Below are positions 1,290 through 40,356 of a DNA stretch of 49,489 bases, piece after piece; position 1 is the first letter of the stretch, and the number at the start of each line of letters is the position of its first letter. The notes below the pieces were generated by a model. It was not told the DNA's origin. It saw only the letters and a list, made by a program, of their open reading frames with translations, and made no database searches. The position numbers were made by a program, and so were the translations under genes. The stretch comes from Candidatus Eiseniibacteriota bacterium. Its GTDB lineage: Bacteria; Eisenbacteria; RBG-16-71-46; JACRLI01. Where the stretch lies: positions 1 to 49,489 of the forward strand of contig JANXVU010000079.1 of assembly GCA_025351485.1 (NCBI GenBank), in the 5' to 3' direction.

Positions 1290-2321
1290 ATGATCTGTTC
1301 GAGTTGCGGGCGAGAGCTGCCGGAAGGCGCCTCGTTCTGCCCCTATTGCGGTGCGCGGGCCGGCGGCCCGGTTGTTCCGCCGCCGACCCACGGGGAACCC
1401 GGATCCTCGGATTCCCCGGCGATGCCGGAAGGCGCCCCCGGGCCCGCCGTCGCCCCCGAACCGGCTTCCGCGCCGCCGGGCTGGCCGGCTGCTGCCCCTG
1501 CGGTCTCACCCTACACCGCGCCCTATTCGGCACATCCGCCGCTTCCCCCGCCTTCCGATCCGAACGCGATCGAGTGGTTGCGCGAGGGCTGGGCCGCCTT
1601 CGTGCACCGTCCCTGGCCGCCGGTGCTGTTCATGTTCGTCTACTGCTCGGCGCTCTTCGGCTCGAGCTTCTTCCGGATCCTCGTGTTCGGGAGCAACGTC
1701 GAGCGGGGCGGGGCGGGGTTTGCCCTCTCGGGCCTGTTCTCGATGGCCGTCAATGTCCTGCTCCTGCCCATGGCCTATTCCCTGCAGTTCTATTTCATCG
1801 CCGAGCAGCGCGGCGAGAACCCGGACTGGCAGCGGTTCCTCGCGGGATATTCGAGGCCCTGGCAACTGGTGGCGAGCCAGGTGTTCGTGTCGGTCCTGGT
1901 GGTGGCGGCGGTTATCCCGGCTCTGCTGATGTTCGGCCTGGGCGGGCTCTTCGCGACCCTCTTCCAGGGTGGCATTCGAAGCCACCTGGAGTCCATGCTC
2001 GGCCCGGCGGTGCTGGCATTCGCCCTGTGGATGCTGGTGGTGGCCGCGGTGGCCTTCTTTCCCACGCTATTCGCGCCGATGCTCATCGTGGACCAGCGGC
2101 GGGGACCGATTCGCTCGCTCCAGGCCAGCTGGGAACTCACCCGGGGGGCCAGGCTGCAACTGCTGCTGCTGGCGCTGGTCAGCATTCCGATCGTGATCGC
2201 CGGGGTGGTGTGCCTGTTCGTAGGAGTGCTCGTCAGCATCGGCTGCCTGGCTTCGGCCTACGCGGCGGCCTACCGGGACCTGCTGCGCCGGCGGGGGATC
2301 CCGGACCGGGAGGTCTCCTGA
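1290..2321 (+). CDS. Zinc-ribbon integral membrane protein of unknown function
   Basis: The 343-residue protein starts with a zinc ribbon (CSSCG near residue 3 and CPYCG near residue 18). A linker of about 70 residues rich in Pro and Ala follows. The rest is a hydrophobic region with about four to five predicted membrane segments (for example around FMFVYCSALFG, AVNVLLLPMAY, VFVSVLVVAAVIPALLMFGLG and LLLLALVSIPIVIAGVVCL). The late motif with WELTRG before the last segment pair resembles membrane proteins of the DUF4013 or GDPD-membrane-domain type. The start is supported by AGGAGGG at 1276-1282. It stands alone between a terminator and the arsR-type gene. Function is unknown. Confidence 0.75.
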   Translation: MICSSCGRELPEGASFCPYCGARAGGPVVPPPTHGEPGSSDSPAMPEGAPGPAVAPEPASAPPGWPAAAPAVSPYTAPYSAHPPLPPPSDPNAIEWLREGWAAFVHRPWPPVLFMFVYCSALFGSSFFRILVFGSNVERGGAGFALSGLFSMAVNVLLLPMAYSLQFYFIAEQRGENPDWQRFLAGYSRPWQLVASQVFVSVLVVAAVIPALLMFGLGGLFATLFQGGIRSHLESMLGPAVLAFALWMLVVAAVAFFPTLFAPMLIVDQRRGPIRSLQASWELTRGARLQLLLLALVSIPIVIAGVVCLFVGVLVSIGCLASAYAAAYRDLLRRRGIPDREVS

Positions 2322-2390
2322 TCCGGCAGATCCCGAACCTTCCAAGAGTTTCCACGCGCGGTACAATCCCGGAGTCTTTCATGTCCTAAA

Positions 2391-2410
2391 ACTTAGGTAG
2401 TGACCTAAGT
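2391..2410. promoter_or_regulatory. Perfect palindromic operator candidate upstream of arsR-type gene
   Basis: ACTTAGGT at 2391-2398 and its exact reverse complement ACCTAAGT at 2403-2410 flank the 4-base spacer AGTG. It lies in an A/T-rich patch 100 bases upstream of the ArsR-family gene, the usual place for an autoregulatory operator. A possible -10 (TACAAT, 2362-2367) lies just upstream, so repressor binding would block early transcription. That ArsR binds here is inference. Confidence 0.6.
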
Positions 2411-2509
2411 AATGAATGGGCGCAAGATCTCCTCGATGCCCGCGCGATGCGCGGTCGTCCCGGTCCGCTCCGTCGGCATGCGGCCGGTTGAACGCGGGAA
2501 GGACGAAGA

Positions 2510-2866
2510 ATGCCCCGAGGCGCGGCAGCAACCCGTGCGGCGCAGCCCATCGATGAGGTGCTGCGCGCGCTTTCCGATCCCACCCGCCGGCGGGTGGTGG
2601 AGCGGCTCTGCCGGGGCCCCGCTTCTGCCGGAGAGCTGGCGGAGCCCTTCGACATGGCCCTGCCTTCTTTCGTCCAGCACATGAAGATCCTGGAGGGGAG
2701 CGGGCTGGTTCAATCCACCAAGTCCGGCCGAGTCAGGACCTACCGGATCGCACCCCGTCGATTCAAGCTTGCCGAAGACTGGCTGGCCCGCCAGCGCTCC
2801 CTGTGGGAACGCCGGCTGGACCAGCTCGACGACTACCTCGCCGCCCTCAAGGAGAAGCGCCCATGA
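2510..2866 (+). CDS. ArsR-family winged-helix transcriptional regulator
   Basis: This 118-residue protein has the ArsR-type winged helix: [16 protein letters not shown] forms the first helices, the [20 protein letters not shown] region the recognition helix, and [16 protein letters not shown] the wing. No cysteine pair of the metal-sensing CVC type is present, so it is unlikely to be an arsenic or cadmium sensor. It belongs with the metal-free ArsR regulators commonly encoded beside AHSA1/SRPBCC proteins. Its stop overlaps the start of such a gene (ATGA, 2863-2866). A GGGAAGGA ribosome site precedes the ATG. It probably represses its own operon through the palindrome at 2391-2410. Confidence 0.9.
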
Positions 2867-3345
2867 CATCGGATCCGCGCTGGAAGATCGATCCGCGGCT
2901 CGACCTGGTCCTGGAAAGGGTCATCGACGTCCCCCCCGAACTGGTCTGGGCGGCCTGGACCAGGCCCGAACACCTCTGCAAGTGGTTCACCCCGGCGCCC
3001 TGGACGACGGTTGAAGCCGAGGTCGACCTGCGCCCCGGAGGCATCTTCCGCACCACCATGCGTTCGCCCGAGGGAAAGGACTTTCCGAACACCGGGTGCT
3101 ACCTGGAAGTCATCCCCAACGAGCGCCTGGTGTTTACGGACGCCCTGCTGCCGGGATTCCGCCCCGCGGAAAAGCCTTTTTTCACGGCGATCGTGACCCT
3201 CGAGCCATATGGAACCGGCACGCGCTACACCGCCATTGGCAGGCACCGGGACGAGGCGGGGCGAAAGCAGCACGAGGAAATGGGTTTCCACACCGGCTGG
3301 GGGAAGGCCCTGGATCAACTGGTGGCCGTGGCGAAGCTCATGTAG
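2863..3345 (+). CDS. AHSA1/SRPBCC (START-like) domain protein
   Basis: This 160-residue protein has the AHSA1-type SRPBCC fold, a ligand-binding or co-chaperone-like domain. The diagnostic start of the fold is visible: [19 protein letters not shown] followed by KWFTPAPW. Then come the [13 protein letters not shown] strand pair and the C-terminal helix [13 protein letters not shown]. The ATG at 2863 is chosen because it overlaps the arsR stop; an in-frame upstream codon at 2803 would overlap the regulator by more than 60 bases. The ArsR-AHSA1 pair is a common two-gene unit, with regulator and SRPBCC protein co-transcribed. The ligand is unknown. Its 3' end overlaps the convergent HipA-like gene by 8 bases. 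Confidence 0.9.
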
Positions 3346-27208: not shown

Positions 27209-28324
27209 GTGGCGCTCGGCGCGGCCATCCTGGTCGCGTGGCCGGTCGCCGCGCCCGCGCAACCCAAGGCGGGAGATGCCCGCCCGGGCGATTCCTTCGC
27301 GGCGGGCGCCGATGTAAGTTCCTTGCCCGCGATCATAGCGCACGGCGGCGTATACCGCGACGAGCTCGGCACCGGGGATGCGCTGTCGATCCTGCGCCGG
27401 CACGGCCTGCGGTGGGTGAGGCTCCGCCTGTGGCACGCGCCCGCGGATGGCCGCTGCGGCCTGGCCGGGACCCTGGCCCTGGCGCGCCGGGCGCATGCCC
27501 AAGGCTTTTCCATCTTCCTCGACCTGCATTACTCGGACACCTGGGCCGATCCCGGCCGCCAGGATCCGCCCGCTGCATGGCGGCACATCCGCCCCCTGGC
27601 CCTTGAAGACAGCGTCCGCCTTTACACCCGCGATGTCCTGCGCGCGTTTCTCGCCCAGGGGACTCCGCCCGCGCTGGTCCAGCCCGGCAACGAGATCACT
27701 TCGGGAATGCTGTGGGACACGGGCCGCGTGGGCGGGCGTTTGGATACGCCGCCGCAGTGGCGCAGCCTCGGCCGCCTGCTGAAGGCGGCTACCCGCGGCG
27801 TGCAGGAGGCCTCGCCAGGGCGGCCCGGCCCGGGAATCGTCCTGCACGTGGACCAGGGAGGCAACCGCGCGACTTGCCGATGGTTCTTCGATCATCTGAA
27901 AGACGCGGGGGTGGAGTACGACGCCATCGGCGTGTCGTTCTATCCATGGTGGCACGGCACGCTGGCGGGGCTCCGGGACAACCTGGATTTCATGGCGGAG
28001 CGCTATCACAAGGATGTCTACGTGGTGGAGACGGCGTACCCGTGGACGTTGCAGTGGTTCGATTCCACCGCCAACGCCGTGGGCCGGCCCGCGCAGCTCC
28101 ATTCGGGATACGAGGCCTCGGAGTCGGGACAGGCCGCCTTCGTGGGTGATGTGGTGCGTGCCGTGAGGGCCGTGCCCAGAGGGCGAGGGCGGGGAGTCTT
28201 CTACTGGGGGGCGGAGTGGATCACGGCGCGCGGAGCGGGATCGCCATGGGAAAACGCCGCGCTCTTCGATGACCGCGGAAATCTACTGCACGCCGCCGAC
28301 TCGCTGGGGACATCCGCCCGCTGA
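27209..28324 (+). CDS. Secreted glycoside hydrolase family 53 (arabinogalactan endo-beta-1,4-galactanase)
   Basis: GH53 enzymes cut beta-1,4-galactan of pectin side chains. The 371-residue frame holds the (beta/alpha)8 barrel: GADVSSLPAI with the missing-residue-type opening, RLRLWHAP, FLDLHYSDTWADPGRQ, the acid/base Glu162 in QPGNEITSGMLWD and the nucleophile Glu274 in VVETAYPWT. YWGAEWI is near the C-terminus. From the GTG the signal peptide has no positive charge. Starting at ATT 27164, six bases after GGGGAGG, would add 15 residues with a basic start (RRRSSVRLA). That start would overlap the protease gene by 11 bases. Confidence 0.88.
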   Translation: MALGAAILVAWPVAAPAQPKAGDARPGDSFAAGADVSSLPAIIAHGGVYRDELGTGDALSILRRHGLRWVRLRLWHAPADGRCGLAGTLALARRAHAQGFSIFLDLHYSDTWADPGRQDPPAAWRHIRPLALEDSVRLYTRDVLRAFLAQGTPPALVQPGNEITSGMLWDTGRVGGRLDTPPQWRSLGRLLKAATRGVQEASPGRPGPGIVLHVDQGGNRATCRWFFDHLKDAGVEYDAIGVSFYPWWHGTLAGLRDNLDFMAERYHKDVYVVETAYPWTLQWFDSTANAVGRPAQLHSGYEASESGQAAFVGDVVRAVRAVPRGRGRGVFYWGAEWITARGAGSPWENAALFDDRGNLLHAADSLGTSAR

Positions 28325-29536: not shown

Positions 29537-30193
29537 ATGCGCCAAGCTACCACCGTGGTCTCCTCAGCCTTGTTCATTCTCGCGCTGGCCTCCCTTGCCG
29601 GCGCCCAGACCCGCACCCCGTGGCAGATGCACGACGGCCTGGAAGTCACGCCGTCCAATCCGCTCGGGTTGGTGCAGTTCACCTGCAGCCCCAGCCAGCA
29701 CGGCGATGTCTGCGAATACGACGTCGCCACCATTCCGGCCGGCGCCGATCCCGGCTGGGGCCCCGCTCCGGACGGCCAGATCATCAACTTCAGCATTCCC
29801 TCGCGCGTCTGCCAGGCTCCGATCAGCTGCATGGCCTACGGCGACTTCACCTATTTCCAGACGTTCGTCGACATTCCGGTCAACGTCCAGGTGACCCAGT
29901 TCACGATCGCCTTCAACGGCATGGATGACGGCTCCCGGGTCTCGATCTTCAACTCGGTGTATCCTACCGGGCTGGTCATTCCCGGCAGCTACGTGTTCCT
30001 GGGCGGCACCGGCACCGCCGATCTCAAGAACTATGTGGTGAGCGGCGAATTGAACCGCGTGGTGATCACGCAGGTGGACGACTGCTGCTCCGAGAACAAC
30101 CTTCGAAGCGCCGTGGTGGTGCTCAACGGAACGGACCTGACCACGGCGGCCAAGGCCGTCAACTGGGGCAAGCTCCGCCGCAGCTACCGCTAG
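29537..30193 (+). CDS. Secreted beta-rich protein ending in an NWxxLRxxYR tail
   Basis: The 218-residue protein has a clear signal peptide (TTVVSSALFILALASLAGAQ). The mature part looks all-beta, with FTIAFNGMDDGSRVSIFNS and the Cys-Cys pair VDDCCSENNL suggesting a lectin-like or carbohydrate-binding jelly roll. Four other cysteines may form disulfides. The chain ends in AAKAVNWGKLRRSYR. The last ten residues match those of an unrelated secreted protein at 38 kb, so the tail may be a sorting or anchoring signal. The ATG at 29537 has AAGGAAA upstream and gives a normal signal length. No enzyme motif is seen. Confidence 0.75.
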   Translation: MRQATTVVSSALFILALASLAGAQTRTPWQMHDGLEVTPSNPLGLVQFTCSPSQHGDVCEYDVATIPAGADPGWGPAPDGQIINFSIPSRVCQAPISCMAYGDFTYFQTFVDIPVNVQVTQFTIAFNGMDDGSRVSIFNSVYPTGLVIPGSYVFLGGTGTADLKNYVVSGELNRVVITQVDDCCSENNLRSAVVVLNGTDLTTAAKAVNWGKLRRSYR

Positions 30194-36853: not shown

Positions 36854-36880
36854 AGCCGGCCAGTTCCGCCGGTTTCTTTT
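36854..36880 (+). terminator. Intrinsic terminator inside the leader of the PEP-CTERM gene (attenuator or end of a small RNA)
   Basis: AGCCGGC (36854-36860) and GCCGGTT (36868-36874) pair with one G-T pair around a seven-base loop and are followed by TCTTTTT. It lies about 40 bases after the expected transcription start and 70 bases before the gene. Confidence 0.6.
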
Positions 36881-36948
36881 TGGACCTTCATAAACATAAC
36901 GCATACGCGATGTGTCTTGGACGTTCATGCGGTCAACGGGAGAGACGA

Positions 36949-37521
36949 GTGACGAATAAGCTAGTGGCTCTGATGGTTCTTCTAGGCGGACTCGCCGCCG
37001 GCGAAGCGCGCGCGCTGCCGGCGGTCGCCCTTGACTACAACCTGACTGCCCTCGGCTCGGACAATTACAAACTCGACTACTCCCTGGCAAACCTTGGGGA
37101 AGCGGGCGGGATCAATGAACTGATCCTGTTCTTCAACTCGGACGATCTGCCGGGCGCCGACTTTCCGCCCTTGAGCATCGAAGACCCGGCCGGCTGGGAG
37201 CACTCCGGCTCGGGCGCAGTCATTCCTCCGGATCCTGGGCATTACGCCTGGTCGGTCGATTGGGTGGATGCCGACCCCAACGATCCGGGCGTGGTCCAGG
37301 GCGAGTCCCTGGGCGGATTCTCGGTTTCGTTCCACTGGTCCAACCCCGATGCGCCTCCGGGCTCGCAGTTCTTCGAAGCCTTCGGCGCGCGCCCCAACGA
37401 GGGCACGACCGCCGTCACACCCGAGCCCAATGCGCTGGCGCTCATGGGTTCCGGATTCGGGATGCTCGGCCTGGCCGGGTATTTCCGCGGCCGTCGCCGT
37501 AAGGTCGAGGAATCCAAGTGA
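36949..37521 (+). CDS. PEP-CTERM secreted protein
   Basis: The 190-residue protein has a signal peptide (KLVALMVLLGGLAAGEARAL) and a beta-rich body with GGINELILFFNSDDLPGAD and GGFSVSFHWSNPDAPPGSQ. It ends in a PEP-CTERM sorting signal: the PEP motif (TPEPNALALMGSGF), a transmembrane stretch and the basic tail RGRRRK. An exosortase would cleave at this signal; none is in the window. The GTG at 36949 is chosen because GGGAGA lies five bases upstream and the signal peptide starts there. It overlaps the next gene (GTGA), which is its paralogue with a different C-terminus. Confidence 0.88.
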   Translation: MTNKLVALMVLLGGLAAGEARALPAVALDYNLTALGSDNYKLDYSLANLGEAGGINELILFFNSDDLPGADFPPLSIEDPAGWEHSGSGAVIPPDPGHYAWSVDWVDADPNDPGVVQGESLGGFSVSFHWSNPDAPPGSQFFEAFGARPNEGTTAVTPEPNALALMGSGFGMLGLAGYFRGRRRKVEESK

Positions 37522-38084
37522 GGCGCCTTTTCGCAGCGGTCCTGGTGGGCCTGCTTGCGTTTGCGGGTCTGGCCCATGCGGGCGGGACCATGGTGGTTTA
37601 TAAGCTTTACCATTTTGAGGGTGCCGGCTGGATCCAGTACTACCCGAGTGACCTGTTCCCCGCGGGTGGCGACCAGGCCGGCGCCAACCGCTGGCGCTAC
37701 GACTACATCCTGTACAACAACTCGGCCCCGGGCGCGATCAACACGCTGCAGGCTTTCTTCAACAGCGACGGCCTGCTGCACGCCGACCCGCCGCCTGCGG
37801 CTGTGACTCCGCCGGCGGGCTGGAGCCCGACCTATTTTGCTCCGCCGTTCGGCCAGCAGGCGTGGCGCGAGCGGTTCCGTAACCTGGCCAGTCCCGTGGC
37901 GGTCGGTTCGTCCTTCGGCCTCTACCAGGTGGAATTCTTCTGGCACGACGCCGTGCTTCCCGGCTCCCAGCCCTACGACGCCCAGTACTCGACCGGTTCC
38001 GAAACCGGCCAGACGATTCCCGTGCGGCGCTCCACGCCGGCCGGGAATACCAACTGGAGTGCGATCCGCAAGCTCTACCGCTGA
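37518..38084 (+). CDS. Secreted paralogue of the PEP-CTERM protein, ending in an NWxxIRxxYR tail
   Basis: The 188-residue protein starts with a signal peptide (LFAAVLVGLLAFAGLAHAGG). Its middle aligns with the preceding protein: WRYDYILYNNSAPGAINTLQ, FFNSD followed by AD, PPAGW, then VGSSFGLYQVEFFW and LPGSQ. The PEP-CTERM signal is absent. Instead it ends STPAGNTNWSAIRKLYR, matching the tail of the protein at 29.5-30.2 kb. So two tandem copies of one secreted domain carry two different C-terminal signals. The GTG at 37518 overlaps the previous stop, so the pair is translated together. Function unknown; a surface or matrix role is likely. Confidence 0.75.
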   Translation: MRRLFAAVLVGLLAFAGLAHAGGTMVVYKLYHFEGAGWIQYYPSDLFPAGGDQAGANRWRYDYILYNNSAPGAINTLQAFFNSDGLLHADPPPAAVTPPAGWSPTYFAPPFGQQAWRERFRNLASPVAVGSSFGLYQVEFFWHDAVLPGSQPYDAQYSTGSETGQTIPVRRSTPAGNTNWSAIRKLYR

Positions 38085-38248: not shown

Positions 38249-39814
38249 ATGCGTCAATCCCAGGGGACTGCCATCGTCCTCGCACTGCTCGTGGCCGCTT
38301 GCCTGCTGGTGGCTGCCCCGGCCTCGGCCCAGACCCCCAAGACCATGAGTTACCAGGGCCTGCTACTCGGGCCCGCCGGGGGCGCGGTGACCGATGCCAG
38401 CTACGACCTTACCTTCAAGCTTTACGATGCTTCCGTGGGGGGGACGCTGCTGTGGACCGAAGCGCACACCGGGGGGGCCAACCACATTCCGGTGAGCAAG
38501 GGCATCTTCAGCACCGTGCTTGGAAGCATCACCCCATTGAACCTGCCTTTTGACAAGCCCTACTGGCTGGGGATCACGGTGGGTGCCGGGCCGGAACTGA
38601 CGCCGCGGGTGGCGCTGAACTCCTCCGCCTACGCCGCCCGGGCGCGGGCCCTGGAGTTGCCCTACACCGAGAGCTTCAACACTTCAAGCGATCTTCTGTT
38701 CCTGACCAACAACGGAACCGGCAATGTCCTGAGCGCCATCCTCCCCAATCCTCCCAACAGCGGGCACGCGATCTTCGGTGCAGCTTCCGGCACGGGCGGC
38801 GCCACCGACATCGCGGGAATCTACGGTTTCCAGAACTCTCCCGGGCCCGGGCCGCGCAGCTCGGGAGTCGTGGGCGACAACTTCGAGGTCGGTGGCACCG
38901 GGTACGGGGTCAAGGGCCTGGATCGCGGCGCCGGGATCGGGGTGTACGGTACGTGCAACGTGGGCACCGGCGTTTACGGAGTTACGGTTTCGGGCGAGGC
39001 GATCCACGGCAGCGCGCCGTGCACGGCCACGAACTCCGTCTGCATCCACGGAGACATCCCGGGTCCCACGGTGGGGAACAGTTCCTCTGCGGTGCGGGGA
39101 TCGAATGGTGGTACGGCCGGGAGCGGAATCGGGGTGTGGGGATCCCAGGCCGGAAGCGGCTACGGCGTCTATGGAACCGTGACCGGCGCGGGTTGGGGGG
39201 TGCGGGGGATTGCCGGACCCGGCGGCACCGGTGTGTACGGCGGTGGCGGGCTCTATGCCGGCTTCTTCTCTGGAAATGTCACCGTGGCGGGAAACCTGGT
39301 CGTGAGTGGTTCGGTGACCAAGGGCTCGGGCTCGTTCAAGATCGACCACCCGCTGGATCCCGAGAACAAGTATTTGTTCCATTCATTTGTCGAATCCCCT
39401 GACATGAAGGACATGTACGACGGCGTGGCGACCACCGACTCCGATGGCGAAGCCGAAGTGAAACTTCCCGACTGGTTCCAGGCCCTGAACCAGGACTTCC
39501 GCTACCAGCTTACCGTGATGGGTCAGTTCGCCCAGGCCATCGTGGCCCGCAAGATCGACGGCAACCGGTTTGTGATCCGCACCGACAAGCCGGGCGTGGA
39601 AGTTTCCTGGCAGGTCACCGGCATCCGTCACGACGCCACGGCCCTGGCGCACCGGATCAAGGTGGAAGTGCCCAAGCCCGAATCCGAGCGGGGACTGTAC
39701 CTGGACCCATCAGCCTACGGCAAGGGACCGGAGCGGGGAGTGGAGTACCGCCGCGAGAATGGCGGGCAGGCCAGCCAGATGGGCTCAAACATCACGCCGG
39801 AGAGCGGCAAGTGA
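38249..39814 (+). CDS. Large secreted surface protein with Gly-rich beta-repeats
   Basis: The 521-residue protein has a signal peptide (VLALLVAACLLVAAPASAQ). An N-terminal beta-sandwich-like domain follows (SYQGLLLGPAGGAVTDASYD, LYWTE-type strands). From about residue 188 to 340 there is a series of roughly 13-20-residue repeats built on G-x-G-V-Y/W-G (GIGVYGTC, GTGVYGVT, GIGVWGSQ, GYGVYGTV, GWGVRGIA, GTGVYGGG), suggesting a beta-helix or trimeric-adhesin-like stalk. The C-terminal part (GSFKIDHPLDPENKYLFHSF and following) is a conserved-looking globular region seen in many surface proteins of uncultured bacteria, as I recall it. GGAGG six bases before the ATG supports the start. Confidence 0.8.
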   Translation: MRQSQGTAIVLALLVAACLLVAAPASAQTPKTMSYQGLLLGPAGGAVTDASYDLTFKLYDASVGGTLLWTEAHTGGANHIPVSKGIFSTVLGSITPLNLPFDKPYWLGITVGAGPELTPRVALNSSAYAARARALELPYTESFNTSSDLLFLTNNGTGNVLSAILPNPPNSGHAIFGAASGTGGATDIAGIYGFQNSPGPGPRSSGVVGDNFEVGGTGYGVKGLDRGAGIGVYGTCNVGTGVYGVTVSGEAIHGSAPCTATNSVCIHGDIPGPTVGNSSSAVRGSNGGTAGSGIGVWGSQAGSGYGVYGTVTGAGWGVRGIAGPGGTGVYGGGGLYAGFFSGNVTVAGNLVVSGSVTKGSGSFKIDHPLDPENKYLFHSFVESPDMKDMYDGVATTDSDGEAEVKLPDWFQALNQDFRYQLTVMGQFAQAIVARKIDGNRFVIRTDKPGVEVSWQVTGIRHDATALAHRIKVEVPKPESERGLYLDPSAYGKGPERGVEYRRENGGQASQMGSNITPESGK

Positions 39815-40356
39815 GGCCCGCGCTTCTCCTGGCGGGAGCTCTCGTCGTGCTGGCTTTGCCGGCTGCCTCCACCACCTTTGCCCAGACCAGCCTCGGGGCG
39901 AGCGTGTTCGCAAGCGGTGGCGCGGCCACTTCCGGAGTGAACTTCAGCATCCTCGGCACCGCCGGTCAGAACATCGCCGGCCAGAGTACCGGGGCCCCCA
40001 ACTCGGTGTGCTCCGGCTTCTGGTGCCAGGGCGCGACCACCGTGGTGGCCGTGCCGGGAGACGGGGAATCGCGAGGCAGGGTGGAATTCGCGCAACTGAG
40101 CTCCAACCCGGTGAGAGGCCCGGTGCAGTTCATGATCTACCTTCCACGTGCGGGGTCCGTGGAGCTGAAGATCCTGGATGTTCGCGGGAGCCTGGTCCGC
40201 ACTGTTCTGCAGGGCGCCGGCGTACCCGGAGAACACCGCTTCTCTTGGGACGGCCGACCCCGGGGAGGCGGCGCGCTGACCTCCGGCATCTACTTCGCGC
40301 GGCTCACCGTGGATGGTCGGCCGGAACCGGCTCGCAAGATGCTGGTGATGCGTTAA
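39811..40356 (+). CDS. Secreted protein with C-terminal FlgD-like Ig domain
   Basis: The 181-residue protein has a signal peptide (LLLAGALVVLALPAASTTFAQ). A short Gly/Ser-rich domain follows (SGVNFSILGTAGQNIAGQST, with Cys pair CSGFWCQG). The C-terminal 90 residues form a FlgD-like/T9SS-associated Ig module: LSSNPVRGPVQFMIYLP, VELKILDVRGSLVRTVL, and GIYFARLTVDGR ending in RKMLVMR. The same module ends the subtilase at 22.6 kb. The GTG at 39811 overlaps the stop of the beta-repeat protein, so the pair is co-translated and may act together at the surface. Confidence 0.82.
   Translation: MRPALLLAGALVVLALPAASTTFAQTSLGASVFASGGAATSGVNFSILGTAGQNIAGQSTGAPNSVCSGFWCQGATTVVAVPGDGESRGRVEFAQLSSNPVRGPVQFMIYLPRAGSVELKILDVRGSLVRTVLQGAGVPGEHRFSWDGRPRGGGALTSGIYFARLTVDGRPEPARKMLVMR

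Follow-up and report, generated by a model that had tools for sequence, protein, structure and literature searches.

The stretch of DNA analysed here, referred to below as the window, is the 49,489-nt contig JANXVU010000079.1 of a Candidatus Eiseniibacteriota bacterium. Two of its genes, both on the + strand together with the features described for them, encode exported proteins that end in a very similar way. Protein 1 (29537-30193; 218 amino acids from the ATG at 29537) begins with a Sec signal peptide, MRQATTVVSSALFILALASLAGAQ, mapped to positions 29537-29605 as MRQATTVVSSALFILALASLAGA with a probable cleavage site placed by an AxA motif. Its C-terminal tail, NWGKLRRSYR (30161-30190), is followed by the stop codon TAG at 30191-30193. 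Protein 2 (37518-38084; 188 amino acids from a GTG start) carries a Sec signal peptide, VRRLFAAVLVGLLAFAGLAHA, at 37518-37580, also with a probable cleavage site, and ends in NWSAIRKLYR (38052-38081) ahead of the stop codon TGA at 38082-38084. Neither protein gave a Pfam or NCBIfam match. These two genes had been described in the initial annotation as unrelated secreted proteins sharing a tail at the very last residue, and this description proved correct in each respect: both tails directly abut the stop codon, a Sec signal peptide is recognisable on each carrier, and BLASTP did not connect the two bodies at E ≤ 1e-4. An AlphaFold model of a window protein built from a two-sequence input was uninformative (pLDDT 38).

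Immediately upstream of protein 2 lies a tandem paralogue (36880-37521, + strand; 38% identity to protein 2 over 110 amino acids, E 2e-9), which bears a PEP-CTERM end in place of the tail, hereafter the WG-YR tail. This end, AVTPEPNALALMGSGFGMLGLAGYFRGRRRKVEESK (37411-37518, + strand), comprises the motif, a transmembrane stretch and a basic cluster (RRR). Judged from its sequence, the tandem pair is an exchange of a known sorting signal for a new tail on homologous bodies. PEP-CTERM is a live system in this genome, as typical PEP-CTERM ends also occur elsewhere in it and it encodes an exosortase (E 3e-72). A neighbouring exported protein (39811-40356, + strand) has a FlgD_ig C-terminal domain resembling that of type A cargo of the type IX secretion system, T9SS (PF13860, E 9.5e-11), and FlgD_ig has 93 matches in the genome. 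Since PEP-CTERM ends, FlgD_ig/T9SS-like ends and the WG-YR tail all occur there, the genome holds at least three C-terminal classes. Two other window genes are recorded here: 38249-39814 encodes a 521-amino-acid exported protein with an N-terminus similar to the mosaic adhesive trimer N-domain NF053851 (E 1.4e-6, under the curated cut-off), and 27209-28324 encodes a glycosyl hydrolase family 53 (galactanase-type) protein (PF07745, E 1.2e-95).

Occurrence and anatomy of the tail

The genome was searched with the DNA form of the pattern W-x-x-hydrophobic-[KR]-x-x-Y-R-stop, using the reversed pattern as a control. Twenty matches were obtained against none for the control, the two window tails being among them. 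Nineteen of the 20 close open reading frames (ORFs) that run for about 190-400 codons and clearly begin with a signal peptide, and the remaining one (L003) is a 49-codon fragment. The 19 bodies fell into 17 BLAST clusters. As 19 signal-peptide-bearing ORFs with 17 body clusters share it, the tail is a genome-wide feature of this organism, far beyond chance. A tighter pattern with W-G fixed was then applied to 47 genomes of the phylum and gave 589 matches (table sum) versus one control match, with 44 of the 47 genomes positive. Clustering of 161 tail proteins resolved 76 body clusters, which rules out common descent of the bodies.

Placement was examined in a 1.33-Mb sample of the same genome. 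The core motif was terminal in 7 of 930 called proteins and internal only twice in 372,697 residues; from these two internal cases, about 0.005 terminal matches are expected in the sample. Across the fetched loci the core was terminal 159 times and internal seven times. A chance origin of the tail is ruled out by these counts and by the reversed controls. Export was called for 162 of 174 closed tail ORFs versus 197 of 443 other ORFs from these loci (Fisher p 1.5e-32). The calls were made with a plain hydrophobicity rule, which is crude and has a high background of 44%. The background is high because neighbours of tail genes are often exported too, and the comparison is a fair one since the loci had been chosen for the tail and not for the N-terminus. 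Several tail ORFs that failed the rule are incomplete or mis-started frames. Both the end-of-chain placement and the enrichment for signal peptides anticipated in the initial annotation were thus confirmed.

A logo of 217 non-redundant tails read T/S-P-V-E-x-[ST]-[ST]-W-G-x-I-K-[AS]-L-Y-R, followed by the stop. Its only strong positions are [ST] at -10, W at -9, G at -8, I/L/V at -6, K/R at -5, Y at -2 and R at -1. Conservation amounted to W 100%, G 95%, I 76%/L 13%/V 9%, K 92%/R 7%, Y 100% and R 96%, with [ST] before the W in 94%, the values for W, K/R and Y being partly built in, as these residues were fixed in every search pattern. G was fixed in some searches and was absent from the first pattern, where it was still found in 18 of 20 tails, while [ST], the upstream P-V-E and the L were never part of the search patterns. 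Position -3 tolerates S, T, R or N. A synthetic peptide of the tail would read SPVESSWGSIKALYR.

No transmembrane helix was found in the tail when the last 40 residues were scanned in 19-residue windows, the Kyte-Doolittle value never exceeding 1.53, and an internal transmembrane-like stretch was found in 0 of 161 tail proteins. The last 10 residues are hydrophilic (mean Kyte-Doolittle -0.65), with a net charge of about +2.4, and the spacing of W, I and Y fits one face of a helix. Amphipathicity is mild (mean z 0.78 vs shuffles of the same residues), and in at least 5 of the 161 proteins the signal peptide resembles one with a lipobox. For a 14-member tail family, AlphaFold predicted a cohesin-like body (pLDDT ~90) with cohesins as the best PDB matches; the terminal helix (173-182) is unpacked in this model and has a pLDDT of ~45, yet it is the most conserved part. 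Because the tail combines this conservation with an unpacked, low-pLDDT helix, the simplest reading of the model is that it would be an exposed linear motif read by another molecule, probably a protein.

These properties also bear on the possibility that the tail acts on its own as an amphipathic anchor in the membrane, its W/I/Y-K/R helix lying in a leaflet with no dedicated receptor. The C-terminal anchors of DacA/PBP5 offer a precedent, in which an exported protein is held by a short amphipathic C-terminal helix, and the helical W/I/Y spacing, the positive charge and the modelled helix of the tail are compatible with such a role. However, the tail is hydrophilic, shorter than a DacA/PBP5 anchor and conserved residue by residue, and its amphipathicity is only mild. 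The residues at -8 (G, 95%), -2 (Y) and -1 (R) keep an exact spacing to the stop, a specificity far beyond what lipid binding calls for. The tolerance of S, T, R or N at -3 also speaks against it, and a second anchor would be needless on the proteins with a lipobox-like signal peptide. We consider this explanation unlikely.

Bodies and taxonomic spread

NCBIfam analysis of the bodies matched 145 tail proteins to 25 families. The choice-of-anchor families V, J, L, W and E were found directly on tail proteins (NF038128, NF038133, NF033208, NF041895 and NF041928), and further body matches were to the ScyF PEP-CTERM, MXAN_6652 MYXO-CTERM, TQXA, and rhombosortase- and myxosortase-dependent M36 families. 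The matched families are ones whose C-termini elsewhere bear different, interchangeable sorting signals. The choice-of-anchor families are defined by body domains, and the tail would be a new anchor type on them. In the window's own genome, the bodies include choice-of-anchor L, LamG-like and NHL types. Overall, the tail is carried by selected extracellular-type proteins (NHL, beta-helix, LTD and choice-of-anchor). No T9SS C-terminal domain (CTD) or CTERM domain model was present among the 25 NCBIfam families on the 145 proteins, nor any T9SS CTD model among the Pfam matches listed (25 of 44), and the tail itself is not represented by any sorting model in Pfam or NCBIfam. Based on the NCBIfam families, the WG-YR tail and the T9SS CTD/CTERM signals look mutually exclusive, which is a further pointer to a sorting role.

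Tail proteins often stand in tandem arrays (L063 and L083). A tandemly repeated tail family with a predicted cohesin-like fold was noted at L063, L083, L089, L172, L174 and other loci. The tail could in principle be a ligand that docks proteins on a cell-surface scaffold, in the manner of a dockerin on a cohesin. The unpacked short helix on a linker, the one large tail family with a cohesin-like body and the common tandem arrays would all suit this arrangement, which is hard to separate from an anchoring signal by sequence; the tail neighbourhoods, however, contained no scaffold bearing a repeated, co-distributed binding domain, and we regard it as distinctly improbable.

When 84,980 named species genomes were scanned, at least 119 stretches matched. 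Among the matches listed, Ca. Eisenbacteria is foremost, followed by Krumholzibacteriota, Latescibacterota, Cloacimonadota, Coatesbacteria, Fermentibacteria (Aegiribacteria), Poribacteria, UBP1, a 'Gemmatimonadota' bin and other bacteria. Krumholzibacteriota have up to 25 tails per genome, Effluviviaceae 34, DHS20C21 50 and Latescibacterota 2-15. Coatesbacteria have six, of which five were checked and found genuine on a complete chromosome (G047), and Cloacimonadota have one real tail protein per genome. Among the named matches listed, no genuine tail was found in Bacteroidota; the only listed matches in well-known groups (Cellulosilyticum, Arthrospira, Bacillus and Salinimicrobium) were rejected, having no real ORF behind them. 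WOR-3 was not counted as tail-bearing because the one tail gene there has an exact copy in a second bin from that accession series. The two copies, L132 (CP070795.1, WOR-3) and L100 (CP070727.1), come from bins of nominally different phyla, suggesting an error of binning or assembly.

Within the phylum, sub-family f5 has few or no tails, and the final residue there may also be K, H or Q. Its low-copy loci contain choice-of-anchor V, LTD and a 'DTNGDG' family, and no shared enzyme was found in them. Exported f5 proteins ending in WWQRMWPSN, WWERLWK or WWERIWGSR (L229:585-1955 and 1996-3330; L201/L220) possibly represent a second tail class. In Poribacteria, two adjacent proteins, one of them LamG-like (L061:2007-2738 and 2766-3125), end in KLATAWAELKR and LASTWSKLKYE; these look like a reduced form of the tail that has the [ST]-W-x-x-L-K core and lacks the Tyr-Arg end. 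In three Cloacimonadota genomes the single tail gene is followed by a conserved protein of 105-120 amino acids with an N-terminal hydrophobic stretch (L158:2366-2680, L091:5446-5763 and L067:204-566).

Comparison with known sorting systems and search for a partner

Several known systems, PEP-CTERM/exosortase, LPXTG/sortase, GlyGly-CTERM/rhombosortase and MYXO-CTERM/myxosortase, likewise place a short C-terminal region on many unrelated signal-peptide-bearing proteins, and they resemble the tail in numbering tens per genome and in being interchangeable on the same bodies. The LPXTG, PEP-CTERM and GlyGly-CTERM signals are tripartite, consisting of a motif, a transmembrane helix and a basic cluster (PMC3237569). 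Tail proteins agree with CTERM proteins in the signal peptide (162/174) and in having no other transmembrane segment in the body (0/161). The tail itself differs from PEP-CTERM and its kin: its motif is the last 10 residues, with no transmembrane helix and terminal basic cluster after it, and it occurs in genomes without an exosortase. Since the helix is absent, the tail is not a tripartite CTERM signal; the helix expected beside the Gly-rich motif of a GlyGly-CTERM substrate of rhombosortase is likewise lacking.

The initial annotation had suggested that a co-occurring membrane enzyme be sought by phylogenetic profiling. An exosortase was found in 33 of the 47 phylum genomes, the window's own among them. 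The general exosortase/archaeosortase model found no member in five genomes that carry tails and are at least 90% complete (G008, G023, G027, G037 and G044), one of which, G008, has 18 tails, while G033 has an exosortase and no tail. Because five near-complete tail genomes do without the enzyme, and with G033 as the converse case, exosortase/archaeosortase was rejected as the partner. Despite the exosortase and the PEP-CTERM proteins that accompany the tail in its own genome, one of them in the window, it is very improbable that the tail is a CTERM variant handled by an intramembrane enzyme of exosortase/archaeosortase or rhombosortase type, as these genomes and the missing helix both speak against it. 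A second, short exosortase-family protein was observed at G000:C140:20918-21181, with about a dozen relatives in frames of mostly ~190-230 amino acids, compared with ~300 for the exosortase.

A search of 8-20 kb tail loci returned only common families as recurrent neighbours (FlgD_ig proteins, DegT aminotransferases, epimerases and nucleotidyltransferases) and no partner candidate. A PorV-like protein was present in four tail loci, which is not above rough expectation. The membrane enzyme looked for has thus not emerged: exosortase/archaeosortase is excluded and the neighbourhoods have so far yielded no other partner.

T9SS CTDs (TIGR04183/PF18962/PF13585 and FlgD_ig ends) offer the other close parallel, being likewise transmembrane-free C-terminal signals on Sec-exported proteins of FCB bacteria, and T9SS markers co-occur with the tail. 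SprA_N was detected in 39 of the 47 phylum genomes, 25 of the 26 good ones, and in 14 of 20 other genomes, the six without it including two chance-match genomes. The C25 peptidase family, to which the T9SS sortase PorU belongs, was present in all 34 genomes tested and in none of 14 control genomes. C25 does not discriminate, because the tail-free G033 and, according to published work, Bacteroidota have it too. No SprA_N was detectable in the complete Coatesbacteria chromosome G047, which has five genuine tails; a divergent SprA is possible there, as C25 and 22 FlgD_ig domains are present. The distribution of SprA and C25 fits a T9SS-like route without proving it. T9SS has been placed in several FCB phyla, and its CTDs are compact immunoglobulin-like domains the end of which tolerates extension (PMC11285876). 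In contrast to such a CTD, the Ig-like domain of ~70-100 residues that defines T9SS cargo (TIGR04183, TIGR04131, PF18962 and PF13585), the tail consists of ~10 residues fixed to the stop.

Proposed function of the tail and its significance

In the predicted proteins the tail sits at the chain end of exported proteins with unrelated bodies, and it is exchanged with a known signal on homologous ones, as would be expected of a new sorting signal. We therefore propose that [ST]-W-G-x-[ILV]-[KR]-x-x-Y-R-COOH is probably a linear, transmembrane-free C-terminal sorting signal, whichever route it serves. The sorting or anchoring role put forward in the initial annotation gains further backing from the choice-of-anchor bodies and the PEP-CTERM swap on the window paralogue, the function being deduced by comparison. 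Tail proteins would leave the cytoplasm via Sec, as their N-terminal signal peptides strongly suggest; having no further transmembrane segment, they would then be soluble. The final ~10 residues would be shown on a flexible linker, as a short helix in the low-confidence model. A periplasmic or outer-membrane receptor may recognise the face formed by W, I and Y together with the K/R side and the free carboxyl end, and may hand the protein to the cell surface or the outside, or fix it there. We infer this recognition and the surface or extracellular destination, as well as possible processing and a possible T9SS link, from the comparisons above.

For the route, a T9SS-like passage across the outer membrane, of a type widespread in these FCB-type phyla, is the leading candidate, a tentative one that we rate well below an even chance. 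Bacteroidota, the main T9SS phylum, are tail-free among the named matches listed, CTDs are folded, and Coatesbacteria lack a detectable SprA_N, all of which count against it. A separate system is about as likely. Such a wholly separate FCB-type surface-sorting system, with a receptor or enzyme of its own other than exosortase, sortase, rhombosortase, myxosortase or T9SS and with recognition of the free Tyr-Arg, is a serious possibility, though short of an even one. It is highly unlikely that the tail is instead a quality-control mark for a periplasmic protease or chaperone: some periplasmic proteases typically recognise a free C-terminus, but the tail is fixed on selected extracellular-type proteins and not on a general class, and its basic Tyr-Arg end is unlike the known degrons, which are hydrophobic.

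The open-access literature on these phyla and on sorting and secretion returned no description of the tail. If the proposal is true, a transmembrane-free class is added to the known C-terminal sorting signals. The tail would then be a text-searchable marker of the surface or secreted proteome in Eisenbacteria, Krumholzibacteriota, Latescibacterota, Coatesbacteria and others, phyla that are known largely from metagenome-assembled genomes. Because it is so easy to count, a partner search by phylogenetic profiling is directly possible, in the same way that counting of PEP-CTERM opened the search that led to exosortase as its partner. If the route is T9SS, this secretion system would read a second, very small signal; if separate machinery is found, the tail would be categorically new, and for now it is akin to the known C-terminal sorting signals.
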